The notes below the pieces were generated by a model, which ran no database searches, was not told the origin of the DNA, and saw only the letters and a list, made by a program, of their open reading frames with translations. The translations under genes and the position numbers were made by a program. Below are positions 2,393 to 16,595 of a stretch of 64,000 bases of DNA, piece after piece; positions within the stretch are counted from its first letter, which is position 1, and every line of letters begins with the position of its first letter. Source of the DNA: Acidihalobacter aeolianus (GTDB lineage: Bacteria; Pseudomonadota; Gammaproteobacteria; DSM-5130; Acidihalobacteraceae); NCBI RefSeq assembly GCF_001753165.1, contig NZ_CP017448.1, positions 2,855,183 through 2,919,182 on the forward strand, written 5' to 3'.

Positions 2393-2415
2393 CCCAGCCT
2401 GCTAAAGCAAGGGCT
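2391..2415. terminator. Possible bidirectional hairpin between coaE and bcsC
   Basis: An interrupted inverted repeat (AGCCC ... TGCT-AA-AGCA ... GGGCT) spans the stop codons of the convergent genes coaE and bcsC. There is no T tract, so the call rests on symmetry and on its position between convergent genes. Confidence 0.3.
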
Positions 2416-5400
2416 CAGCTCCCGGCTTGGGGGTTATTCAAACCGAACAGCCACGGCGCCTCGACACTGTGCGTTTCCATGCTGTGCCTGTCTAGGGGCT
2501 GGGCATTGAACCAGTACCGAACCAACACACCACCGGACAAATTGGTGTAATTCTGGCTGTTGTCCGAACCGAAAAATCCGCTTATGAACAGATGCGGCGT
2601 CCACGCGTAGGTACCCGTGAACTTCAAGCCATAGGCGACACTGCCCACGGTGTTCGAGGGGTAGTAGGCATTCCCGGACAATGTCTGCATGCCCGAATCG
2701 AGTGGGAAGTATTGGCTGCTGTTGCTGTGAAATACCTGCCAACCGACCAGCCCGCTGAAACGGTAGTTGAGTCTGTGTGCCGCGGTGCCCTGCCACTTGA
2801 GGGTCAGTGCGGGACGGAAATAGTACTGCGGACTGAAATATCCGCCCTGGCCGTAGGTGAAGTGGCTGGAATCGTTCGAGTAGAACATGGAAAGAAGATC
2901 GAAGCCCAAGGCGATGCGAGCCTCGCGCTGGTCCACGATGCGCCAGTTCGCCCCCAGATTCGCCTCCACGCGCGTATTGGTCTGCACGTGCTGCCCTTCC
3001 AGCGCGGCCAGGCTGAGGCTGCCATACAGCAAGCGCTCCTCGTTACCAGAACCAAAGCTGATCCCGAGTCCGTTGACAAATACACCACCCCACACCAAAC
3101 CGGTCTTCTGGTCCTTGATGCCCGCATAGGACAACACGCTGTCACGCATGGCATGTCGGAACAGGTCGAGCGCAAGCGGACCACCCGACGGCTGCCAACG
3201 CAAAGACGCGATCAGACTGTGTTCGAGGAAACCCAGAGGCGAGCTGCCTACCGTAATGCCCAGATTGGGACGGTCTAGGCTCATCGCTAGCCCCAGGCCA
3301 CTCGCCTTGGCGTATGTTCCCGGTTCGGATCCGTAAATCGGCGCGGTACCTATCTTCGCCCCGCTGCTCACCGTACCCGCATCCACGGCAATCGGTGCCA
3401 GCCGTACGGTAACACGCGTGTTGTAATCGACCGCCGTGCTGCCTTCGAACTGACTGCCGAACAGGGTCATCTGGTCAAGCCCCTGCGTACCGCTACGCGC
3501 GCGGGCGTAGAAGGCCGCATCCACATAGGGACTCATATGTCCCTCGATCGCGGCTAGCTCATCACGAATTTCCTGCCGTGCCTTCGGAACATCTGCCATG
3601 GCGACACCCGTTTTTACCTCGGGCAAAGGCCCTGTTGCCGCAACCTTAGCGCCGACTGGACCCGCGAACGGGTAACTCTGTGCTGGGGCCGCTGCGGCGA
3701 ACGGATAGCGCTTGTCAAAGCCATTGGCAGCTACAGAGCCACCCATCGTCTCGCTCGCTGGCAAAACCGGTTCCGGCAGGCTGGCCAGCGCGCTGCGGAG
3801 TGACTTGCGTGCCATATCGGCATTGCCCTGCCGCAAATCGACTTTCGCCGCCAACATTTTGAGGCTCACATCGTCAGGTCGGCTGGCCAGTCCCTGTCGC
3901 ACCCATTTTTGTGCCTGCGCTGTATCGCCTGCAGCCAACGCTGCGCCGACTGCTGCCTGATAGCCTGCCGACGTTTTGCCGGGGCCAACCTGGCGATATA
4001 TGGTCAACGCTTCCGAAAAATGCCCTTCCTGAATCAACAGATCAGCGCGCACTCTCTGCACGCCCGGGTCGTTCGGGTAAATGGATTCCGCGCCGCTGAC
4101 GATGGCCTCAGCGATTTGCGTATTCCCATGATCAAGTGCGTGCTGCGCCTCTCGCCGGGCAGCATTGAGATAAAGCGAACGCACTTGATCGGTCTGGTCC
4201 GAGGTCAAATCCTGACGACCCAACAAGGCAATCAAGCGGGTATGCAATGCCACATCATCGTCGGACTGATACAGCAACCAGGCCAGTTGCAGCTGTAGGT
4301 CGACTGGAGCAGCCTTACCGTCCCTGGCAAGCGCGGCGCGCAAACGGGCAATGGCCTCTGGCCGATGCCCCGTCGCCGCTTCCGCCCACGCCACAACGCT
4401 CGCATAATCCGGCGTACCCTGTAAGTCGCGCTTGACGCCGTCAGGTATGCGTCGGTTCGCCGCGAGCAACTGTGCGGGGCTGTCCATCTGCTGGAGTGAT
4501 TGCAATGCGGCCAGCCAGGCCTTGGGGTCGTCGGGAGCCGCCTTGGTCAACCGGGCGAAAATACGGCTGGCCTCCTGACTCTGCCCCATCCGCTGATATG
4601 CCCCTCCCAAAGCCGCCAGGGCAGCAGGGTCTTCCGACTTGAGGTTGAGTGCCTGCCGATAGTCGTTGACCGCACGTTGATAATCGGCGACGGCGACGGC
4701 CTGTTGGCCAGCCTTCATCCACGACCAGTAACGCGCGTTACGTGCAGCCTTGGCAAGACGTGCCCGGTCCGCCGCGCTACGCGTCATACCCTCTGCACGA
4801 CCGTAGTAATCCGCCGCCCGCGTGAAATCCTGCGCGCGCATGGCCACATCGGCCAGACCCTCCTGAGCTTTCGCGTTATGCGGATCGCGCGTCAGGATGG
4901 AAGTAAACATCTCGCGGGCACGGTTCAGATGACCCGCCTTGAGCGCTGCATAAGCGTCAGACATCTCGCGCCCATGACGGCGCTGGCGCTCGATTCCCGC
5001 CTGCAACCCCTCGGCCTGGCGCAGATTCGCCGCCAAAACGGAATCCCGGTGTTTTGCCAGATACGCCCGCAAGTAGGGTATCGCACGCGGATCCTTGCCC
5101 ATCCAGCCCAGCGCTTCGCGCCAGTGCGCCTGCGCGCCCGGGACCTTATCTTTTGCCAGAGAGGAAAGAATCTTGATGCCCTCGATCCGAGTCTGCGCGT
5201 GATAGCTCAAGAGTTGGCCTAGCACCAGCCGATACGCGGTTTCATGGGGATGCAACGTCACCTGGGTGCGCAGTTCGCTCACTGCGGTCTGCCAACCGCC
5301 GGTGACCTTGGCCAGAGTCTGGTAATAGGTCTCCGCCCATTTAGGTGGAGGTGGGCCCTGAAACACGTTCCGATAGGCGGAGACTGCAGCGGCGTATCGT

Positions 5401-5792
5401 TTCTCGCTGGTCAGCCGTGCCGCCTCTGCAAGCTTCGGACCCGCACCGGGGCCCAAAACCAGCAGGCCGCGTATCTGGTCGATGGCCGGATTCTGAGGTG
5501 CCACCTGTTTGAGGCGGTCGAGATAACGCTGAGCTTCAGCGAGTCTCCCCCGACGAGCATCGTACAGCGCCAACCCCGCCAAAGCCGTCGGCTGTTTGGG
5601 ATCGGCCGCGAGCACCTGCTCCCAGCTCTTGGCTGCCAGATCTTCGCGTCCGTGCATTTTCCAGTATTGCGCGCGTTCGATCAGTAGTTGCACTGCGCTG
5701 CCATTGCCCGATGCCGCGGCCAGAGTCAGTACAGGTGCGCCCATGGTCAGCACGCCCGCAATCAGGGTGGGCATCCAGATTCGTCGCTTCAT
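2415..5792 (-). CDS. bcsC: Cellulose synthase outer-membrane export subunit BcsC
   Basis: Carries the growing glucan across periplasm and outer membrane. The 1125-residue protein has a signal peptide (residues 1-26, ending LTLAAA). A long TPR solenoid follows, with many repeats of the form AxxxLxxLxxxxPxxP from about residue 30 to 680. The last ~330 residues form the beta-barrel BCSC_C region, rich in alternating aromatic and glycine residues, including SPLGFLEHSLIASLRW, YSNDSSHFTYGQGGYFSPQYY-type and SGGVLVRYWF segments. Length agrees with E. coli BcsC (~1150). The start overlaps the bcsZ stop by 4 bases. It is the last gene of the operon. Confidence 0.95.
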   Translation of the reverse strand: MKRRIWMPTLIAGVLTMGAPVLTLAAASGNGSAVQLLIERAQYWKMHGREDLAAKSWEQVLAADPKQPTALAGLALYDARRGRLAEAQRYLDRLKQVAPQNPAIDQIRGLLVLGPGAGPKLAEAARLTSEKRYAAAVSAYRNVFQGPPPPKWAETYYQTLAKVTGGWQTAVSELRTQVTLHPHETAYRLVLGQLLSYHAQTRIEGIKILSSLAKDKVPGAQAHWREALGWMGKDPRAIPYLRAYLAKHRDSVLAANLRQAEGLQAGIERQRRHGREMSDAYAALKAGHLNRAREMFTSILTRDPHNAKAQEGLADVAMRAQDFTRAADYYGRAEGMTRSAADRARLAKAARNARYWSWMKAGQQAVAVADYQRAVNDYRQALNLKSEDPAALAALGGAYQRMGQSQEASRIFARLTKAAPDDPKAWLAALQSLQQMDSPAQLLAANRRIPDGVKRDLQGTPDYASVVAWAEAATGHRPEAIARLRAALARDGKAAPVDLQLQLAWLLYQSDDDVALHTRLIALLGRQDLTSDQTDQVRSLYLNAARREAQHALDHGNTQIAEAIVSGAESIYPNDPGVQRVRADLLIQEGHFSEALTIYRQVGPGKTSAGYQAAVGAALAAGDTAQAQKWVRQGLASRPDDVSLKMLAAKVDLRQGNADMARKSLRSALASLPEPVLPASETMGGSVAANGFDKRYPFAAAAPAQSYPFAGPVGAKVAATGPLPEVKTGVAMADVPKARQEIRDELAAIEGHMSPYVDAAFYARARSGTQGLDQMTLFGSQFEGSTAVDYNTRVTVRLAPIAVDAGTVSSGAKIGTAPIYGSEPGTYAKASGLGLAMSLDRPNLGITVGSSPLGFLEHSLIASLRWQPSGGPLALDLFRHAMRDSVLSYAGIKDQKTGLVWGGVFVNGLGISFGSGNEERLLYGSLSLAALEGQHVQTNTRVEANLGANWRIVDQREARIALGFDLLSMFYSNDSSHFTYGQGGYFSPQYYFRPALTLKWQGTAAHRLNYRFSGLVGWQVFHSNSSQYFPLDSGMQTLSGNAYYPSNTVGSVAYGLKFTGTYAWTPHLFISGFFGSDNSQNYTNLSGGVLVRYWFNAQPLDRHSMETHSVEAPWLFGLNNPQAGS

Positions 5793-6952
5793 CGCCAGTT
5801 CACCTCAAGATTGCCTTTGGAATCGAAGCGGTAGATCCCCCCCAGGTAACCCAGCGCGAACAGCGCCAGATTCTGGTCGTAATAATGCGCCGGACGGCCA
5901 TACAAACCATCCGCTTGGCGACTCCGCTCGATAATTTCAAGTTGTTGTTTAAAAAGTGAAGTTGTACCCAAACTCCGCAGATAGGGCAGTAGTGCGGCGG
6001 AAAAACCGACGGGACCATCACCCACGGCATCGCCCGTAGCCGTGTTCACCGAAACCGGCGGCACGGCATGAGTGTGCAGATAATTCGCCATGCCCCATAA
6101 CGCGCCGATACTCTGTTGTGCGCCCGGCATATCATCCGGCGTCATACCGGCCCACAGGTACACGCGTATCGCATCGTAACTGCCTCTGTCAGGGGAGCGT
6201 TCGGCGGGACCGAAGCCCTTGCTCGGGCACCAGCCGACCCAGTTCGGCGTGAAGCCGTGCGGGGAAACGGACTGTAACAGCGTGGGAAGCGCATGCGCCA
6301 TGTCGGTCCATGGTGCTCCCAGAACGTGCCCCATTCCCTGCAGCACCGGCAATGGCATATAGCTGGGATCGAAGGTGTAGCAACCCGATCCGTCCGGCCC
6401 GAAACCCTTCCGCCCCGGCAGCAGCAGCGGCCCCACACCCGGCAGGTTCACCACTTCCTTCAGCGCGATCGCGGCAGCCAGGCCGCGCCCCAGCTTGGTG
6501 TAGCGCTCGTCGTGCCACAGACGCCCCGCCTGCAACAGCGTATAGGCCATCCAGAGATCGGCATCGGAGGCCGAATTCGGATCGATCACCCCCCATGTGC
6601 CGTCCGCCCGCTTGCCCCACAGCCAGGCCGGCAGTCTTGCGCCGAGTTCGTCAGCAGCCAGGTTTTCCCGGGTCCACTGCAGCAGCTTGGCGAATACGGT
6701 CGGTTGGTTGGACACCAGGGCGAAGAACAACGCATAGGCCTGCGCTTCCGACGTCGTCCGCTGGTCCTCGTAGGCACGGTCGATCACCCGCCCCTGAGCA
6801 TCGATGAAGGACTTGGCATAAGCCGTCCACAGCCGGCCGAAGAGATCGGGGTCGACCGCGCTGTGTACCTGGCTGCAGGCGGACAGCAGGATCAGCAGCA
6901 AGCCGATCCCGCTTCCGCGCAGCAGGTTTAACAGAGGTGCAGCGGCCCGCAT
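5789..6952 (-). CDS. bcsZ: Periplasmic endoglucanase BcsZ (GH8), predicted lipoprotein
   Basis: GH8 endo-1,4-beta-glucanase that trims or edits nascent cellulose. The 387-residue protein begins with a lipoprotein-type signal (LLSAC, Cys26). The GH8 hallmark TTSEAQAY places the likely catalytic acid at Glu69, and PNSASDADLWMAY (about residues 125-137) matches the substrate-binding region with conserved aspartates. It lies 1 bp after bcsAB and overlaps bcsC, so the operon is tightly coupled. E. coli BcsZ is soluble and periplasmic; a lipidated form would be membrane tethered, which is an inference from the lipobox only. Confidence 0.94.
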   Translation of the reverse strand: MRAAAPLLNLLRGSGIGLLLILLSACSQVHSAVDPDLFGRLWTAYAKSFIDAQGRVIDRAYEDQRTTSEAQAYALFFALVSNQPTVFAKLLQWTRENLAADELGARLPAWLWGKRADGTWGVIDPNSASDADLWMAYTLLQAGRLWHDERYTKLGRGLAAAIALKEVVNLPGVGPLLLPGRKGFGPDGSGCYTFDPSYMPLPVLQGMGHVLGAPWTDMAHALPTLLQSVSPHGFTPNWVGWCPSKGFGPAERSPDRGSYDAIRVYLWAGMTPDDMPGAQQSIGALWGMANYLHTHAVPPVSVNTATGDAVGDGPVGFSAALLPYLRSLGTTSLFKQQLEIIERSRQADGLYGRPAHYYDQNLALFALGYLGGIYRFDSKGNLEVNWR

Positions 6953-6953
6953 G

Positions 6954-9900
6954 TCAGGCGGCGTTCATCCGCTTGGTTGCACGGCGCCTTAGCAAGGCTC
7001 CAACCAACCAAGCCAAGATCAGAGACGCCACAATCACGCCGATCCAGATTACCCACGGATGGCGGCTCAGGTGATAGCGCATCCAGGTCCAGAAAGGCAG
7101 TTTGCCGACGAAGTAGCTCGGCGTATGCAGAATGAACGAACTGACCTCGTCGCCATGCACCACGCTCAGGTTACCGAACACGTTCTTGCGCTTGTCGGCG
7201 CTGTCCAGCGCGTTGAGTAGGGCTTCCCAGCCGTTGCTGTCGTGCGCCGAGATCACCAGCAGCGCCCGAGACTTGTGCAGCGGCGAAATACCCTCTTCGA
7301 TCACCGCCTGCGGCACAGTGCCGGCTGAAACCAGCCTGCCCAGCGCAGCCTCGCCATAATGTCGGTCGTCGCCGTTCCACCAGGGCAGATGCCAGCGCGA
7401 CTCGGCGAACCAACCGGCCAGATTGTTGAGCTTGATGCCGTCCTGCCCGTATTCCATCGGCAGATGGCTGCCCCACTGCTGCATCGACTCGCCGTTCGGC
7501 GTGGTGAACACCAGCAGATTACGCTCGGATACCGTCGCGACATCGCCAGGATGCACGACCGCCACCCGTACGCCGGCCATGCCGGTCTGCTGCCCGAACA
7601 TACCCATGACGTTCAAATAGGCATGCAGCATCGGCTGATCCGCACTGGCCGGCAGGACAACCGCCGTGCGCGACAGATCCGCGTAGCGCGTGAACGGATA
7701 GCCACCGTTCATCCAGATCGAGAGTGCGGGCAGTCGCGTGTAATGCGGGATGCCGCGCAGGTCGATGGTGGAATCCGGATAGATCACGCCGGCAGCATTG
7801 TTGATATTGGTCTGCGTGCACTTGCCCTTGATCGGAGCGAAGTAGAAGGTCGCCGCCATCGAATTGGCGTAAGGCTGAAGCACGCTGGCCGGGAAATTCA
7901 CCACGGCACTATGCTGCTGAGATACGCCGGCACCTTGAGGCAACGAAAACCCATGCACGAAATTCCCATTGGCATTCAAGTTCAGTGTCGAATTGGCCGA
8001 AATCGGCACCGAGTTATAACCGTAATGGATATCCACCGGCACGCCGTGTCGATCCCATAGGAACAAGGACGGCGGCAGGTAGAAGGTGAACGGCAGGGTG
8101 CCGGTACCGTTGACAGACATGGGATTCCAGCCTGCGAGTGCATCCAGACGCACAGGTCCGTTGCTCGGCACCCAGCGAGGTGCATGATCTGGTTTTGACA
8201 ATGGCGGCATGTCGACATTGCTTACCTGCGCATCGGCACCACTCAACATGGCATAACCCAGCGCCAGACCACGTGCCGCCGTTACGACCTGCTGCGCATT
8301 CTCACCCACCACCCACAGAATCTTGCCATAGGGATCGTTCGGATTCGTGGTCACGGCCAGTGTCGGGCCGCTGACCTGAGGGACACCCGTGATGGGGGGG
8401 AGATTGGCGCTTGTGGCAAACACCACTGCATTGCCGTTCGCTGGCAGGCTGCCGATGGAAACCGGGAAATCGGTGCCGCGGTAGCTCGCCAAATCGCCGA
8501 ACCATGAGGCCACAATACCTGCTGCCTGTAGCGTCGTACTACTCGGCTGGGTGAAAAAAACGAATGGCAGCTTGAGGCGATTCTGCATCGACTTGTAGAA
8601 GAACGGTGCGGGCAGAAAGTGCAGATTGTCGTTCAACGCAAGCCGTGCACCCGAAACACGTATCTCGGTGCTTGGGGAAATTGTCGCCCATAAGGTGCTG
8701 TTGTTCGGATCCTCGCATTGATTGGTGTAATGGCCGATCAACTGGAACGCAAGATGATTGTATTCGCTCAGCAGGTTCGGATTGACCGAAAAGCTTGCCG
8801 TATGCGCATCGCCCTCCGTGTCGCCGGGCTGCACAGGAATGGAACGTACCACGCGATTGTTGATCAACACATTGATCTGGCTGATACGTGGCAGCAAGCC
8901 AGGTGAAACGTGGTAACGCACGGTCATCTCGGCCTTGGCCACCACACGGTCCGGCGGGATCGACAATGACACGCCCTGAATATCGTCGACACCACTCATC
9001 CGGAGACCCTGCTTTGCCCCGAGACCGGCCAGCGTCCATTGCGTGGAGAAGCTGCCCTGCGCGTTGGTGGCGGCGCTTTGGGTGGCTGCCTGTGCATCCT
9101 GCGGTACTGCGGAAAGACCCGCAGCACCCAACATCAGCGCCAGCGGGATGAGCAGGGTTCCGGCGGCGCTGCTCTTGGTGGCCGAGGCAGAAGCAGGGGC
9201 AGCTTCTTCACGCGGCGCACGCGTCCAGATGCCGGACACCATGCGCCACACGCCGAGCAGCGCAAGCAGCGCAACCTGCACCAGACTGCGCCATGGGCGA
9301 TCCGCATCGCGTGCCTCGCCCCATCCCAGCCAGGCGTCCGCGCGCCCGTAGATGATCCTCACCAGATCACCTAACTGTTCGTTGTTGAGTTCGCCGAACT
9401 TGAGCCGCATCAAACCATCCTCCGAGAAAGTCACTGTCGCCGGGAAGCGATACTCCCCCCCGTCGTAAACCACACCGATTACTACGCTGGCCCCCTTTTC
9501 CAAACGGGCCTGATGAGCCAGGTCGATGCTCATGCCGCCTTCGGAAATATCTACCGTGCGGGCCAGAATCCGCTCGCCGCTGGGCCGATAAAGCATGGCC
9601 GGCAGCGCCAATGGCACGCGCACCTTTTCACGTACCTGTCTCGTCTCCCAGTTCACGCCCAGCACCACGCTGATCATGAGCAGGTTGTAGATGGTCCATG
9701 CGGAGGTCATCACGATGGTCGCGGTATCGGCGTGCGGCTGTAGATTCCAGCGCATGACCGCGGCTACGAGACCGCCCACATTGAGCAGAAAAAGAACGAC
9801 AAAGGGCCAGGCGAAACGCCTGTCGAAATAGGCCTTGCGCACGATGCCGCCCTTGGCCGTGACATTGAACTTACCGAGCTTTGGATTGATGACCGCCAGC

Positions 9901-11321
9901 AGCGTGGGCAACATGATGTACGGTGCCAGCGCCGTCTCGTAGACCTCGTTCCAGAACGAGTTGCGATGCCGCCCCTGCACCCGCGAGTTCGCGATCATGG
10001 CGAGCGCGAGGTGCGGCAGCGAGTAGGCCGCGATGGTCAGCGCATAGGCATTGATCACGTACACGCCGAAATACAGGAACAGCAGTGGCGCGGTCAGGAA
10101 GATCAGACGCGGCACGGCGAAGAAGAAGTGCAGCATGGCGTTGAGGTAGCACAGACGCTGCATGGGCTTGAGCCCCGGTCCCGTCAACGGGTTGTCGACA
10201 CGCATGATCTGCGCCATGCCGCGCGCCCAGCGGATGCGCTGGCCGACGTGGCCGGAAAAGCTGTCCGTGGCAAGGCCGGCCGCCTGCGGCACGTTCAGAT
10301 AGGCCGAATTCCAGCCGAGGCGCTGCAGCTTGAGCGAGGTATGCGCATCCTCAGTCACCGTCTCGGTGGCGATGCCGCCGATCTGCTCCAGCGCCGTGCG
10401 CCGCATGATCGCGCATGAGCCACAGAAGAAGGAGGCGTTCCACAGGTCGTTGCCGTCCTGCACCACCCCGTAAAACAGCTCGCCTTCGTTGGGCACGCGC
10501 TTGAACACGCGCAGATTGCGCTCGAAGGGATCGGGGGAATAGAAGTGATGCGGGGTCTGCACCAGCCCGAGCTTGTCGTCGCGCAGGAACCAGCCCATCG
10601 CCACCTGCAGGAACGAACGGGTCGGCACGTGATCGGAATCGAAAATCGCCACATATTCGCCCTGCGTCTTGCCCAGGGCGTGGTTCAGATTACCGGCTTT
10701 GGCGTGCTTGTGTTCGGAACGGGTGATGTAGCCGGCGCCGATGTCGCGCGCAAAATCGCGGAACTCGCTGCGTACGCCGTCGTCCAGCACGTAGACGGAC
10801 ATCTTGTCGCGCGGCCAGTCCATTTCCATCGCCGCAAGCACCGTGGGACGGACGACGTCGAGAGCTTCGTTATAAGTCGGGATGTATACGTCAACCGTGG
10901 GCCACTCCTGCGGCGAGGCCGGCAGCGCGACGGGCTTGCGCTGCAGCGGATAGGCGGTCTGCAGAAAACCGAGCACCAGCACCATCCAGGCATAGACCTC
11001 GGCCAGGAACAGGGTCAGCGTGATGGCGATGTCGTACCAGTGGTAGCCGGTCACGCCGAAACCCAGGGTTTCCGTGGCACGCCAATAGGCATAGCGCGCG
11101 GTCGCGAAGAGCGACAGCGCCATCAGGAAATACGTGATCCAGTGAGCCTTGAATATCCGGTTCACCAGAATCGCGAGAATCACGAAGCCGACACCCAGCA
11201 GCGACTGGGCCTGCCAGTCGAACGGCACCACGACCATCGGCGAAAACACGATCACCCCGACGATGAACGCGACGACCAGCGGCGCTTCTTCCTCACCGAA
11301 CATCCGTCTGATGCGCCCCAT
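6954..11321 (-). CDS. bcsAB: Fused cellulose synthase catalytic and periplasmic subunits, BcsA-BcsB
   Basis: A single 1455-residue polypeptide. Residues 1-~715 are BcsA, a membrane GT2 glycosyltransferase that polymerises UDP-glucose. It shows the D,D,D,QxxRW motif as DD 180-181, DSD 228-230, TED 323-325 and QRIRW 361-365, plus a C-terminal PilZ domain with REKVR (564-568) and DISEGG (591-596), the c-di-GMP receptor motifs. After a low-complexity Ala/Ser linker a hydrophobic segment (TLLIPLALMLGAAG) starts the BcsB part, which has carbohydrate-binding/flavodoxin-like domains in the periplasm and a C-terminal anchor (WVIWIGVIVASLILAWLVGALL). The ATG at 11321, 1 bp after bcsQ, is chosen over a frame extension to 11618 that only shadows bcsQ. 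The fusion recalls AcsAB of Komagataeibacter. Confidence 0.96.
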   Translation of the reverse strand: MGRIRRMFGEEEAPLVVAFIVGVIVFSPMVVVPFDWQAQSLLGVGFVILAILVNRIFKAHWITYFLMALSLFATARYAYWRATETLGFGVTGYHWYDIAITLTLFLAEVYAWMVLVLGFLQTAYPLQRKPVALPASPQEWPTVDVYIPTYNEALDVVRPTVLAAMEMDWPRDKMSVYVLDDGVRSEFRDFARDIGAGYITRSEHKHAKAGNLNHALGKTQGEYVAIFDSDHVPTRSFLQVAMGWFLRDDKLGLVQTPHHFYSPDPFERNLRVFKRVPNEGELFYGVVQDGNDLWNASFFCGSCAIMRRTALEQIGGIATETVTEDAHTSLKLQRLGWNSAYLNVPQAAGLATDSFSGHVGQRIRWARGMAQIMRVDNPLTGPGLKPMQRLCYLNAMLHFFFAVPRLIFLTAPLLFLYFGVYVINAYALTIAAYSLPHLALAMIANSRVQGRHRNSFWNEVYETALAPYIMLPTLLAVINPKLGKFNVTAKGGIVRKAYFDRRFAWPFVVLFLLNVGGLVAAVMRWNLQPHADTATIVMTSAWTIYNLLMISVVLGVNWETRQVREKVRVPLALPAMLYRPSGERILARTVDISEGGMSIDLAHQARLEKGASVVIGVVYDGGEYRFPATVTFSEDGLMRLKFGELNNEQLGDLVRIIYGRADAWLGWGEARDADRPWRSLVQVALLALLGVWRMVSGIWTRAPREEAAPASASATKSSAAGTLLIPLALMLGAAGLSAVPQDAQAATQSAATNAQGSFSTQWTLAGLGAKQGLRMSGVDDIQGVSLSIPPDRVVAKAEMTVRYHVSPGLLPRISQINVLINNRVVRSIPVQPGDTEGDAHTASFSVNPNLLSEYNHLAFQLIGHYTNQCEDPNNSTLWATISPSTEIRVSGARLALNDNLHFLPAPFFYKSMQNRLKLPFVFFTQPSSTTLQAAGIVASWFGDLASYRGTDFPVSIGSLPANGNAVVFATSANLPPITGVPQVSGPTLAVTTNPNDPYGKILWVVGENAQQVVTAARGLALGYAMLSGADAQVSNVDMPPLSKPDHAPRWVPSNGPVRLDALAGWNPMSVNGTGTLPFTFYLPPSLFLWDRHGVPVDIHYGYNSVPISANSTLNLNANGNFVHGFSLPQGAGVSQQHSAVVNFPASVLQPYANSMAATFYFAPIKGKCTQTNINNAAGVIYPDSTIDLRGIPHYTRLPALSIWMNGGYPFTRYADLSRTAVVLPASADQPMLHAYLNVMGMFGQQTGMAGVRVAVVHPGDVATVSERNLLVFTTPNGESMQQWGSHLPMEYGQDGIKLNNLAGWFAESRWHLPWWNGDDRHYGEAALGRLVSAGTVPQAVIEEGISPLHKSRALLVISAHDSNGWEALLNALDSADKRKNVFGNLSVVHGDEVSSFILHTPSYFVGKLPFWTWMRYHLSRHPWVIWIGVIVASLILAWLVGALLRRRATKRMNAA

Positions 11322-11322
11322 G

Positions 11323-12489
11323 TCAGTCGTCCTCCATCGCTGTGTCCTTCGGATCCAGCTGGATCCGATCCTCGAGCCAGGCCTCGAATTCCTCGATAGC
11401 GTGCGAGAAGGGCGTATACGAGCGATACACCTGCGGCGGCTGACCGTTGGCCAGCGCCTCCTGCACCGAGTTGTCGAGCGGCAAAGATATTTCCAGTAAC
11501 CGACCGCCCAGACGCTTGCGCAGCGCCTCGGAGATCTGTACGTGCAGCTCGCGTGCGGCATCGAACTGGTTGAGGATGTACCAGGCACCGAAGCGGGGGC
11601 GCGACTCCGCTTCGTCAAGCGCGCGTTCGATGCGTTCGATCACCACCAGTGCGTTGATGTCCGGGCGCACGGGGATGATCGCCATGTCGAAGAAGGGTAT
11701 GTCCTCGGCGACATGCGGCGACGCCTCCATGTCCATCACGACCACCGAGGCCTGGGAAACGCGCTGACGCGCGTTCTCGATCAACTCATCCGTAGGTGCA
11801 TCGCCGATCAGGAGATCGACAGGCTTGCCGCCGCCTTCGATGGCCTGCGAGTAGTGGAGAATGGTCGTACGGCTGCGTGCGGGGTCGACCTCCGGTCCAC
11901 CGAAGTAATACGCCAGCGGCGAATACGGCGTCTGCCCCACGAGGACGCAGCGCCGGTCCAGCCGCGCAAACGCCGCACCCAGTGCGGCAGCCAGCGTGCT
12001 CTTGCCGACGCCCCCGGTATACGACACGAGACCGATGATCGGAGCATACGGCTTTTCTTCGCGGCCGGTATCGGCTTCGAGACGATTCAGCATCGCGAAG
12101 CGGGTCTGTGCCGCATCCGGCTTTGCGGTATATGCTTCTTTGCCGCTACCCGCAGTGGATGCCATCGGCGGCAAAGCCACGGATTCCGGCAGCTCCCTGT
12201 CGACGTGCGGCGAGACCGGGGGGCGCAGCACGGGGGCTTCCTGCACGGATACGGAAGCGCCTCGATCCCTCACGGGAGGGATGAACTCCTCGGCGCGACT
12301 TTCGTCCATCAAGGCCGTCGCCGGTGGCGGCGGAGGCGGATCGTCGAAACGATGGTAGGAGGTCGGCTCCAGCCCCAGATCCCGATAAAGATTCTGCACG
12401 TCCGCCAGCGACTCAAGACCCGCCGCTCCCTTGCTGCGGGGCCGGCGCCACCACTGCCACCACGACTTGCGTTCACTCGCCATCTTCAT
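11323..12489 (-). CDS. bcsQ: BcsQ-like ParA/MinD-family ATPase of the cellulose operon
   Basis: BcsQ proteins are ParA/MinD relatives needed for polar cellulose synthase assembly. This 388-residue version has a ~135-residue N-terminal extension: a basic, Trp-rich start (SWWQWWRRP), a short VQNLYRDLGLEPTSYHRF segment resembling BcsR/BcsP-type proteins (tentative), a polyproline run, and a low-complexity spacer. The ATPase domain starts near residue 138 with TGGVGKST as P-loop. The usual Walker A' aspartate position reads VGQTP, so nucleotide turnover may be altered. The start could be the second ATG at 12483, which has better spacing to GAGGAT than the one at 12489. First gene of the operon. 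Confidence 0.85.
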   Translation of the reverse strand: MKMASERKSWWQWWRRPRSKGAAGLESLADVQNLYRDLGLEPTSYHRFDDPPPPPPATALMDESRAEEFIPPVRDRGASVSVQEAPVLRPPVSPHVDRELPESVALPPMASTAGSGKEAYTAKPDAAQTRFAMLNRLEADTGREEKPYAPIIGLVSYTGGVGKSTLAAALGAAFARLDRRCVLVGQTPYSPLAYYFGGPEVDPARSRTTILHYSQAIEGGGKPVDLLIGDAPTDELIENARQRVSQASVVVMDMEASPHVAEDIPFFDMAIIPVRPDINALVVIERIERALDEAESRPRFGAWYILNQFDAARELHVQISEALRKRLGGRLLEISLPLDNSVQEALANGQPPQVYRSYTPFSHAIEEFEAWLEDRIQLDPKDTAMEDD

Positions 12490-12537
12490 ATCCTCGTCGC
12501 ATCGTTCTACGTCCGCGATTTATCTGATTTATGGCGG

Positions 12538-12569
12538 ACTGTAAGGCCCCAGCGTCACACCAGCGTCAA
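12538..12569 (-). promoter_or_regulatory. Candidate SARP-type promoter of the bcs operon
   Basis: Read on the minus strand, two identical heptamers TGACGCT (12562-12568 and 12551-12557) are separated by 4 bp, and 7 bp further lies TACAGT (12538-12543), a -10-like hexamer. Transcription from it would leave a leader of about 40 bases before bcsQ. Heptamer direct repeats with 11-bp period placed about 8 bp before the -10 are the known layout of SARP-activated promoters, and a SARP-type regulator is encoded divergently next to this site. Functional assignment is inference. Confidence 0.4.
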
Positions 12570-12767
12570 CGCATCCCGCCCTTGCTACGGGCGGCGCCGC
12601 CGGAAAGACCTCCTTGAACCCATTACACGGACTCCAAACCTCACCCGGCCGTCCCCAAACCCTGGATGCCTCAACCTGATACACTATCGAAAAATAAGAT
12701 AAAAGGGCTCCGTCACATGCACGTCATACGCCGCCACTGAACCCGGCCGATTCGGATTCCGACCCCG

Positions 12768-15700
12768 ATGTCCACACTCAAACTCTCGCTGCTCGGCCCG
12801 ATCGAAATCGAATTCCAGAACAAACCGTTTTCAGGCGCGCCGCACGACAAATCCTTCATGCTGTTGGCCTATCTGGCGGTGGAACGCAATCGGCCGCACA
12901 GCCGCGAGGCCTTGGCCGACATGCTGTGGCCAGACCTGTCTGCCGAGCGAGGGCGTCACAACCTGCGCCAGACGGTGTTCCGCCTGCGCAGCTTGTTAGG
13001 CAACGGCAAGGCCGGCGACTTCGTCGAAACAGACCGTCATCGTATCTGGTTCAATCGCGACAGCGACTACCACCTCGACCTCGAACAGTTCCATGCAAAC
13101 CGTGCTGACGGCACAGCCGAACACCTGCTGAAGCGGCTCAGCAATTACCGTGGCACCTTCATGGAAGACCTGCGCGGTGAAGTAAGCGAGGACTTCGATC
13201 TCTGGCTGGAGCAGCAGCGAGCTCGAACTCACCGACAAATGTTGAACATGTTGGAGTCGATTTGCACTCACTATGAAAGCCAGGGCGATCTCTCAACGGC
13301 ATTGCGCTGGGCAGGTCGACAGGTTGAAATCGCACCGTGGGACGAACATGGGCACCAGCGCCTCATCCGACTGCTGGCGGATTCTGGTCAACGAAATGCA
13401 GCCATCCGCCATTACCGTGCCATGGCAGAATCGCTCAAGCGAGAACTGGGCATTTCCCCGTCAAAGGAAACCCAACGCTTGTTTGAGCAAATAGAACAGT
13501 TGCCGGACATTACGCCCGCTACTTATCCTGCCCAAGATTCACATCTCACCCAAGATGACACCCATCCAGGCCTGATACACGAATACCGCCAGGTTACCGT
13601 ACTACGCTGTGGATTCAGTTATCGGAAAATCAACGATCCCGAAGCGTTCGCTGACCTCGTAGCCGAGCCACTATTGCGGGCTGTACGTATCATTGAGGAG
13701 CATAACGGCTGGATTCTCGCCGCACGCGGCACCGGTGTACTCGCCTACTTTGGTTGGCCGACCGCCGACGAACGGGCCGCCACTCACGCCGTGCGTGCCG
13801 CAATAGGTCTAGCCAATCAGCTCTCCGACACCCCGATTGGTTCCACCCTTTCAACTGGAGTACACACAGGACGGATCATTCTGACGGGAGAAACAGACAG
13901 CCCGGATACCATTGGTCTAACCACGGATATCGCCGTTCGATTACAAGCCTCTACGCGTGCCGGTATCATAGCGATTAGCGAAACGACTCGTCGTTGTATC
14001 CATGACCACTTCGAGCTGTCGGCACTCCCACCCCTATCTATGGCCGAACAGACTCATCCGCTATCCGTGTGGCGAGTACACCGTAGCGAATCAGGCCCCT
14101 CTCTCGAAAGCACCCAGCAACGCCCACCCCTAGTCGGCCGAGATGCTGAATTAAACAGCTTGCTCGACGACTGGGCCGTGGCCCAGAGCGGACGCTGCGT
14201 GGTGACCGTACTGGTCGGCGAGGCGGGTATCGGCAAGACCCGGCTGCTGCAGGCCCTGCACGACAAGCTTGGACACCCGCTGCTGCGCGAGACGCATTGC
14301 GATCCGCTGATGCGGCAGACACCGTATCAGCCGATTACGCATTTCTTTCGCCGCCACCTCGACCTGCCGCGCAACTGCACCGACGCGCAGATCGCCGACA
14401 AGCTCGCCGAGCACTATTCCAACTTCCCGCATCAGGGCAAACACGTTATCAAGCCGTTGCAGTGGTTACTCGCACGTACCGACAGCCACCACGAGCAGAC
14501 GGAGGAAGGCCGTTTCAACGAGAGCGAGCGTTCGCAACTCATCGAGGCCATCGCCAACCTGCTCGAAACCAGCGCCAAGGCCACGCCTCTGCTGCTCGTC
14601 GTGGAAGACCTGCACTGGGCGGACCCATCCACCTTGACGCTGCTCGGCTCGCTGGCGGCCCGGCTCGCCGAATCGCGGATTCATTTTTGCCTGACCATGC
14701 GCAGCACCAGCTGCCTGCCCGGTCCGCTGCTCGACCGGGCTCGCATCCTGCAGCTCAGACCGCTGGATCTGAATGCGTCCCTTCAGCTGACCTACCGTCT
14801 GGCCCCCCCGGATCGTACCAGCGGCGATTTCGCGCTGACCATCGCGCGGCAATCCGAAGGCAACCCCATGTTCATCGTCGAGCTGACCTACATGCTCAAT
14901 GACGACGAGCTGGACGACGCCTTGCCCGGCAAACTGCAGGAGCTAATCAGCACGCGTATCGAACAGGCCGGCGAGGACCGCCCCCTGCTACGCGCAGCCG
15001 CCGTCATCGGGCGGGAATTCAGCCTCGCGCATCTGGCGCAACTGCTCGGGCTGCCGGAACAAGCCGTCACCGGCGGGCTCCGGCGCCTGATGCAACGCCA
15101 CCTCATCGAACGCTCATCGGAAGACGAGCTGAGCTACCGCTTCACGCACGCGCTCGTGCATCAGGTCACCTACCAGTCGACCACCCGCAGCCAGCGGCGC
15201 GAGTTGCACAAGCAGTTTGCGTCGTTGCTCATGGCCGACGCGAATAGCGATGTCGATGCCGGAGGCGTGGCCCATCATCTGACCGAATCAGGCGCCTATG
15301 CCGAAGCCATCGGCTGGTGGCTCAAGAGCGGACGGGAGGCAGCCAATATGGCGGCCTACGCGGAGGCCGTCAACCACTTCGAACGCGGTCTGCATCTGCT
15401 GGAACACGTACCGGAGCGCGGGAATCTGTGGGAAACCGAACTCGAGTTGCTGGTCAACCTCGCCTATCCGCTGGCGATCACCCAGGGCTACTACGGCATC
15501 AAATCCGAGCGGCTGTACCGGCGCGCCCTCGACATCACCCGCGACAAGCCCGTACAGGCGCGTCAGAACCTTGCTTTGATGCATAGCCACTGGCTTGGCG
15601 CCAGCAGCCGTAGCTCGCTTCGCGAAAGCCGCGAACTCGCTGGCCGCATGATCGAACTGGCCGAATCCGCAAACGCCAAGGCCTTCGCCGCCCTAGGCCA

Positions 15701-16595
15701 CTACCTGTACGGCAGCGATTCCCTCCTGCTGGGCGATTTTGCGGCAGCGCGCACCCACCTGGAGGAAACGCTGACCCGGCTCGACCGCAAAAACCAGGAA
15801 ACCGAACACTTCCTGCGCAACGACCAGCACTTCGACATCACCGCCACCGGCACTCTGGGCTGGACCGCGTGGTTCCTCGGGCAGGTCGATGGCGCGCTGC
15901 GCCTGACCCAGCGCGCCGTGCACATGTCGGAAGCCCGCCACCACCCTGCCACGCTGACCTCGGCGCTGGTAATTTACATCTTCGCCCGCATCTGCTGTCG
16001 CAGACCCGAGGAAGTCGCCATCGCGGCCAAGCAGCTATGCGCCATCTGCCGCGAAAACGGCTTCCGCATGTGGGACGATTTCGGCACCTTGGCCGGCATC
16101 TGGGCCTCGGCCGTCGCCACGCCACCCGGCGAAACCTGCAAGCTCGATCAGGCGGAGGCGTCCCTGCAGCGCGCCGTTGCGCTCTGGCCCGGCGGAGCAG
16201 CTGCACTGCAATACATCCTCATCGACGCCTGCCTCGCCAAGGCGGACGATGCCCGGGCATGGAAAATCCTCGCTCAATTCAAGAAAACGATGGACAGCAC
16301 CGGTGCCGCGGCCTTTTCCGTCTACGGCTGGATCGCCGAAGCCGACTTGCTGACCCGCGGCGGGCAGGACGGCGAACCCTGTTTGCGCGAGGCGGTCGAA
16401 GTGGCCGAACAACAGCGTTCACCCACCCTCACGATCCTGGCATGGGGACATCTCATCGATGACTACCGGAATCGCGGATTCGCGCTGTCCGAGGACATCT
16501 GCAGGCATCTGCAGGAAACCGTGGACCGCTGCAGCGGCATCGATCTCGCACCAGCCGTGGCCGAGATTACGCGCAAGCTGTCCGGAACGGCCTGA
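12768..16595 (+). CDS. SARP/BTAD transcriptional regulator with degenerate cyclase domain, STAND ATPase and TPR tail
   Basis: A 1275-residue signalling protein. Residues 1-95 match the OmpR/SARP winged helix (LSLLGPIEIEF start, then a DMLWPD...LRQTVFRLR segment). Residues ~100-245 are a bacterial transcriptional activator domain (BTAD, ending ELGISPSKET). Residues ~270-425 have the class III nucleotide cyclase fold, but key residues are changed: Gly282 and Thr322 replace the two metal aspartates and Asp387 replaces the usual Asn, while Arg391 remains. A STAND/AAA ATPase follows with P-loop GEAGIGKT (~residue 484) and Walker B LLLVVEDLHWAD (~607). The rest is helical TPR-like repeats. It is divergent from bcsQ with 278 bp between, making it the likely regulator of cellulose synthesis. 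Such proteins resemble actinobacterial AfsR-type regulators and are uncommon in Proteobacteria. Confidence 0.85.
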   Translation: MSTLKLSLLGPIEIEFQNKPFSGAPHDKSFMLLAYLAVERNRPHSREALADMLWPDLSAERGRHNLRQTVFRLRSLLGNGKAGDFVETDRHRIWFNRDSDYHLDLEQFHANRADGTAEHLLKRLSNYRGTFMEDLRGEVSEDFDLWLEQQRARTHRQMLNMLESICTHYESQGDLSTALRWAGRQVEIAPWDEHGHQRLIRLLADSGQRNAAIRHYRAMAESLKRELGISPSKETQRLFEQIEQLPDITPATYPAQDSHLTQDDTHPGLIHEYRQVTVLRCGFSYRKINDPEAFADLVAEPLLRAVRIIEEHNGWILAARGTGVLAYFGWPTADERAATHAVRAAIGLANQLSDTPIGSTLSTGVHTGRIILTGETDSPDTIGLTTDIAVRLQASTRAGIIAISETTRRCIHDHFELSALPPLSMAEQTHPLSVWRVHRSESGPSLESTQQRPPLVGRDAELNSLLDDWAVAQSGRCVVTVLVGEAGIGKTRLLQALHDKLGHPLLRETHCDPLMRQTPYQPITHFFRRHLDLPRNCTDAQIADKLAEHYSNFPHQGKHVIKPLQWLLARTDSHHEQTEEGRFNESERSQLIEAIANLLETSAKATPLLLVVEDLHWADPSTLTLLGSLAARLAESRIHFCLTMRSTSCLPGPLLDRARILQLRPLDLNASLQLTYRLAPPDRTSGDFALTIARQSEGNPMFIVELTYMLNDDELDDALPGKLQELISTRIEQAGEDRPLLRAAAVIGREFSLAHLAQLLGLPEQAVTGGLRRLMQRHLIERSSEDELSYRFTHALVHQVTYQSTTRSQRRELHKQFASLLMADANSDVDAGGVAHHLTESGAYAEAIGWWLKSGREAANMAAYAEAVNHFERGLHLLEHVPERGNLWETELELLVNLAYPLAITQGYYGIKSERLYRRALDITRDKPVQARQNLALMHSHWLGASSRSSLRESRELAGRMIELAESANAKAFAALGHYLYGSDSLLLGDFAAARTHLEETLTRLDRKNQETEHFLRNDQHFDITATGTLGWTAWFLGQVDGALRLTQRAVHMSEARHHPATLTSALVIYIFARICCRRPEEVAIAAKQLCAICRENGFRMWDDFGTLAGIWASAVATPPGETCKLDQAEASLQRAVALWPGGAAALQYILIDACLAKADDARAWKILAQFKKTMDSTGAAAFSVYGWIAEADLLTRGGQDGEPCLREAVEVAEQQRSPTLTILAWGHLIDDYRNRGFALSEDICRHLQETVDRCSGIDLAPAVAEITRKLSGTA

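Follow-up and report, generated by a model that had tools for sequence, protein, structure and literature searches.

A SARP-LAL-type regulator divergent from the cellulose genes of Acidihalobacter and candidate operators between them

Described SARP-LAL regulators and the Acidihalobacter protein

The SARP-LAL regulators of Streptomyces (PimR, SanG, PolR, and PteR/FilR) have an N-terminal SARP and a STAND/LAL ATPase and lack a C-terminal LuxR-type helix-turn-helix (HTH). Their middle part is related to cyclases without carrying a cyclase signature, and their operators, located between regulator and target, consist of direct repeats with an 11-bp pitch (PMC3367932, PMC10972967). In the case of PimR, the bound units are heptamers separated by 4-bp spacers, and they lie between the PimR gene and its target (PMC3367932). 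For SARPs, the bound direct repeats have an 11-bp pitch, and 8 bp separate the 3' repeat from the -10 element (PMC10936776). Those SARPs and SARP-LALs that have been described act as activators (PMC10972967, PMC10936776, PMC3367932), the Streptomyces SARP-LALs switching on antibiotic clusters. AfsR, a large SARP of S. coelicolor, combines a SARP with STAND/NOD and TPR parts and uses a direct-repeat operator at a fixed distance to the -10 element (PMC10936776).

We analyzed a 64,000-nucleotide stretch of the genome of Acidihalobacter aeolianus, a salt-tolerant acidophile (the window), in which a single long gene combines most of these features:

12768 to 16595, plus strand: SARP-LAL-type regulator of 1,275 amino acids (single open reading frame, domain matches, orthologues in two species)
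12849 to 13037, plus strand: OmpR-type winged helix (Trans_reg_C), residues 28 to 90 (Pfam E 2.9e-6)
13092 to 13493, plus strand: BTAD domain, residues 109 to 242 (Pfam E 1.3e-19)
13578 to 14087, plus strand: degenerate class III cyclase domain, residues ~271 to 440 (PDB sequence matches, family alignment)
14127 to 14684, plus strand: STAND ATPase core (AAA_16), residues 454 to 639 (Pfam E 9.6e-23, conserved motifs)
15690 to 15773, plus strand: strongest TPR match in the C-terminal tail, residues ~975 to 1002 (TPR_2 E 1.2e-6)

The initial annotation had proposed a four-part protein (SARP/BTAD, cyclase-like domain, STAND ATPase, and TPR), and matches in Pfam, PDB, and NCBIfam bear this out, the TPR part being weak. 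Trans_reg_C, BTAD, and AAA_16 were all found. The OmpR-type HTH followed by BTAD, both above Pfam cut-offs, constitutes a SARP, and residues 4 to 243 match the EmbR structure (E 1e-6). TPR_2 was detected only when the C-terminal part was scanned alone; a Pfam scan of the whole protein gave no TPR. Neither the whole protein nor its C-terminal part gave a Pfam match to a LuxR-type HTH, even at an E value of 5. The orthologues in two other Acidihalobacter species (67 to 69% identity) keep every domain, so the regulator is not a chance reading frame, and its dN/dS of 0.13 to 0.17 indicates purifying selection.

The Pfam Guanylate_cyc model matched residues ~271 to 440 at an E value of 0.011, below the cut-off, and the same block aligns with class III cyclases in the PDB (2w01, E 1.6e-5; 3uvj, E 1.6e-4). 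In a family alignment, with residues assigned partly by eye, G282, T322, and D387 occupy the positions of Asp, Asp, and Asn in active cyclases in all three orthologues; the two metal-binding aspartates of an active class III nucleotide cyclase thus have no counterpart. Among 15 aligned proteins (the three orthologues plus 12 distant homologues), the second metal-binding Asp is missing throughout, and the first is retained in just two distant homologues (G125a and G093). The domain was rightly called a pseudocyclase. A single-sequence structure prediction of this part was discarded (pLDDT of 35). Walker A (residues 484 to 491, GEAGIGKT), Walker B (residues ~608 to 614, LLLVVED), and the GNP motif of the ATPase are intact. 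Given these motifs and the replaced cyclase residues, the regulator should bind ATP and should not produce cyclic nucleotides.

The architecture, which the initial annotation did not recognize from described systems, is that of the SARP-LAL class, with PimR, SanG, and PolR compared by published description. The regulator differs from the Streptomyces proteins in being gammaproteobacterial and in adjoining cellulose genes instead of an antibiotic cluster. AfsR, in contrast, has no cyclase-like domain. Nearly the whole cyclase-STAND-TPR part also aligns with the TOMM-system kinase/cyclase fusions of NCBIfam TIGR03903 (residues 271 to 1226, collinear, E 4e-85), below the model cut-off (score of 287 versus 706); those proteins start with a kinase, whereas the regulator starts with a SARP. 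We found no paper linking a SARP-LAL to a cellulose operon or to Gammaproteobacteria, a search of open-access literature that is weak evidence.

The cellulose operon and its loss in one species

The regulator lies head to head with minus-strand bcsQ-bcsAB-bcsZ-bcsC across 278 bp. This divergent arrangement, noted in the initial annotation, is confirmed by reading frames and Pfam matches, with bcsA and bcsB forming one frame:

11323 to 12489, minus strand: bcsQ, ParA-like, with an N-terminal extension of ~150 residues (partial Pfam CBP_BcsQ match; TIGR03371 E 1.6e-27, below cut-off)
6954 to 11321, minus strand: bcsA-bcsB fusion (Pfam and NCBIfam matches, motifs)
5789 to 6952, minus strand: bcsZ, GH8 endoglucanase (Pfam)
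2415 to 5792, minus strand: bcsC, TPR plus outer-membrane part (Pfam)

In the fused BcsAB, the PilZ motifs RxxxR and DxSxxG and the catalytic motifs TED and QRxxW are intact. Its start is most likely the ATG at 11321 and not the TTG at 11618, which overlaps bcsQ and is probably spurious. Past the bcs genes lie coaE, pilD, and pilC; behind the regulator, zapD follows in the same direction after 35 bp. A second, weak BcsB-like match (L065, G000:C1:2316813-2317184; E 6.7e-5, over the cut-off) falls in a 649-residue frame elsewhere in the genome of the window.

We compared the locus across three Acidihalobacter species: that of the window (G000), G001, and G002. G002 has the same arrangement, with the regulator paired with bcs. 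In G001, the regulator sits between coaE and zapD without a bcs operon at the locus, and BcsB had no match anywhere in the single-contig genome. Directly after coaE in G001, 45 bp (L033:14341-14386) are 77.8% identical to the 3' end of the G002 bcsC gene (E 7e-5). On the minus strand, this fossil ends in ...RPWILGLDNPGA-stop, compared with ...KPWMLGLDNPGS-stop in G002, indicating that the bcs operon was deleted in the G001 line. Because of this fossil, we rejected a later arrival of bcs next to a preexisting regulator in G000 and G002. Informative sites favor a grouping of G001 and G002 (27, versus 15 and 14 for the alternatives). Since roughly 39 to 58% identity would be expected for neutral DNA since the split of G001 and G002, the deletion looks recent, and the survival of the regulator in G001 would then say little about other targets.

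Candidate operators and the reading they favor

The intergenic region contains two direct repeats and two predicted promoter elements:

12711 to 12726, plus strand: proximal direct repeat CGTCACATGCACGTCA, candidate SARP operator (kept in three species; exact motif near-unique in the genomes)
12553 to 12568, plus strand: distal direct repeat CGTCACACCAGCGTCA, candidate SARP operator, 64 bp from bcsQ (kept in three species)
12538 to 12543, minus strand: candidate bcs-facing -10 element TACAGT, 7 bp past the second heptamer of the distal repeat (weak, 4/6; predicted)
12696 to 12701, minus strand: candidate bcs-facing -10 element TATCTT, 7 bp past the second heptamer of the proximal repeat (weak, 4/6; predicted)

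Both repeats read CGTCAC-N5-CGTCA, with the 11-bp pitch and form of SARP operators, and the half-sites are invariant at both blocks in the three species while the rest of the intergenic alignment is poor. As sequence candidates, they are conserved heptameric direct repeats of the PimR form near the regulator, with a half-site of CGTCA here versus CGGCAAG in the Streptomyces SARP-LALs. The exact motif occurs 3, 5, and 2 times in the three genomes, two of each inside the intergenic region. This amounts to 6 matches within 943 bp of intergenic DNA versus 4 in about 10.5 Mb outside, a contrast that far exceeds the effect of having defined the motif from the same intergenic regions. Other exact matches in G000 and G001 were considered as second targets; those examined fall across reading frames, one of which is transposase-like, and none was convincing.

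The pitch and the distance to the candidate -10 elements agree with the SARP rule (PMC10936776, PMC3367932). A TAnnnT hexamer stands 7 to 8 bp past the second heptamer at 6/6 sites on the bcs-facing strand and at 0/6 on the opposite strand; this spacing is suggestive only, given weak hexamers (3 to 5 of 6 consensus bases), the non-independence of the six sites, and a rule applied post hoc. A sigma70 consensus scan found no consensus promoter. An imperfect palindrome (GTCCGCGATTTATCTGATTTATGGCGGAC, window 12511-12539) between bcsQ and the distal repeat overlaps the predicted bcs transcription start and is not evident in the other two species.

The reading that we prefer, at a probability of roughly 0.6, is that a SARP-LAL-type regulator was co-opted in one genus as a local activator of the cellulose genes, atop c-di-GMP/PilZ control. 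The two SARP-type direct repeats and their bcs-facing polarity support a likely role at the bcs promoter, as the initial annotation had suggested. By analogy with AfsR, PimR, and STAND proteins, we infer that the sensor of a ligand or partner would be the TPR tail, the dead cyclase domain, or both. The STAND ATPase would then swap ADP for ATP and open, and the freed SARP domains would dimerize on the 11-bp direct repeats between bcsQ and the regulator. From there they would help sigma70 RNA polymerase at the weak bcs-facing promoters, raising bcs transcription, and the proximal repeat may double as an autoregulation site. Cellulose output would still be gated by c-di-GMP through the intact PilZ domain of BcsA; that control acts on the enzyme, so the regulator would add a transcriptional layer. 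In this scheme we infer the signal, the ATP switching, the binding itself, and activation rather than repression.

The strongest competitor is that the repeats act solely at the promoter of the regulator itself, with the true targets elsewhere and bcs a mere neighbor. In each of the three species, also where bcs is missing, the proximal repeat lies at a constant distance from the regulator start (-56/-57), and repeats also occur upstream of distant homologues that have other neighbors. The distal repeat, however, holds its distance to bcsQ (64 and 68 bp in the two species with bcs) and not to the regulator (-215, -245, and -232 across the three species), and all six sites are polarized toward bcs. 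Retention of both repeats in G001 would count against a bcs role unless the deletion was recent, as it appears to have been. We consider autoregulation alone unlikely, at something over a fifth of the total weight.

Regulation of bcs could also run in the opposite direction, the regulator binding both repeats and repressing bcs until a signal relieves it. Binding near a promoter is compatible with this, but the spacing from repeat to -10 element matches activator geometry and the described SARPs and SARP-LALs activate (PMC10972967, PMC10936776, PMC3367932), which makes repression improbable. Even less probable is that zapD is the main target or shares a transcript with the regulator. Their adjacency is kept in the three species, even without bcs, but it would also follow from an insertion between coaE and zapD; zapD is also present without the regulator in the sister genus, and the gap between the two genes holds no repeat.

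Homologues beyond the genus

We surveyed 274 genomes of the class, 130 with BTAD and 20 with BcsB matches. Among the matches listed, BTAD and BcsB lie close together only in G000 and G002, and no recurrent linkage to bcs was found outside the genus. No relatives came from a contig scan that used the three aligned sequences; a profile built from these proteins identified near-full-length homologues in G076, G125 (two), G150, G226, G205 (two), and G093, genomes in which no BcsB scored above the cut-off. Neighbors of the distant homologues include GGDEF proteins, NAD synthase, a GntR-aminotransferase regulator, and a methyltransferase, among others. Cellulose control is not a general function of such regulators; most homologues elsewhere lie away from bcs. 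The initial annotation had named homologues regularly found away from any bcs gene as evidence against the pairing, and for the family as a whole this is what the survey found. Within the genus, G001 does carry the regulator without bcs; given the deletion indicated by the bcsC fossil, this does not count against a bcs role there.

A generalized repeat, CGTnA-N6-CGTnA at an 11-bp pitch, was present 7 times upstream of 13 distant homologues, versus 0 to 3 at any other pitch, a count that is partly circular because the half-site was generalized from some of the same sequences. For 40 other BTAD genes, the CGTnA motif occurred 3 times at pitch 11 and 0 to 2 times at other pitches. A motif-free count of 6-mer repeats in these 40 genes gave no special peak at pitch 11, so the repeat signal is not general for BTAD genes.

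Several individual loci differ in context. Two distant homologues adjoin GGDEF diguanylate cyclases (L101:6300-7220 and L098:5494-6924); one of the two, in G125, is head to head and has an 11-bp CGTTAT repeat upstream. On a Salipiger plasmid (L150:6986-10735), a near-full-length homologue is divergent from a hypothetical protein and a pyruvoyl histidine decarboxylase, and no CGTnA repeat was found upstream of it. In G036 (L028 and other matches), many frames of 1,700 to 1,980 residues match the STAND part, an apparent family expansion.

What appears new here is a SARP-LAL with an unreported cellulose neighbor and good candidate operators. A bolder and more tentative proposal, which we hold at well under even odds, is that a Gram-negative SARP-LAL, with its dead cyclase as a possible sensor and its STAND domain as a switch, directly activates a biofilm polysaccharide operon. 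The CGTnA repeat with its 11-bp pitch would then serve as a common operator for a group of gammaproteobacterial SARP-LALs, each controlling the gene head to head with it. G001, in which bcs was deleted and the regulator and repeats were retained, offers a natural control. Mineral attachment matters in bioleaching acidophiles, and if our reading is correct, these bacteria would have an ATP-switched transcriptional layer above c-di-GMP-gated cellulose.
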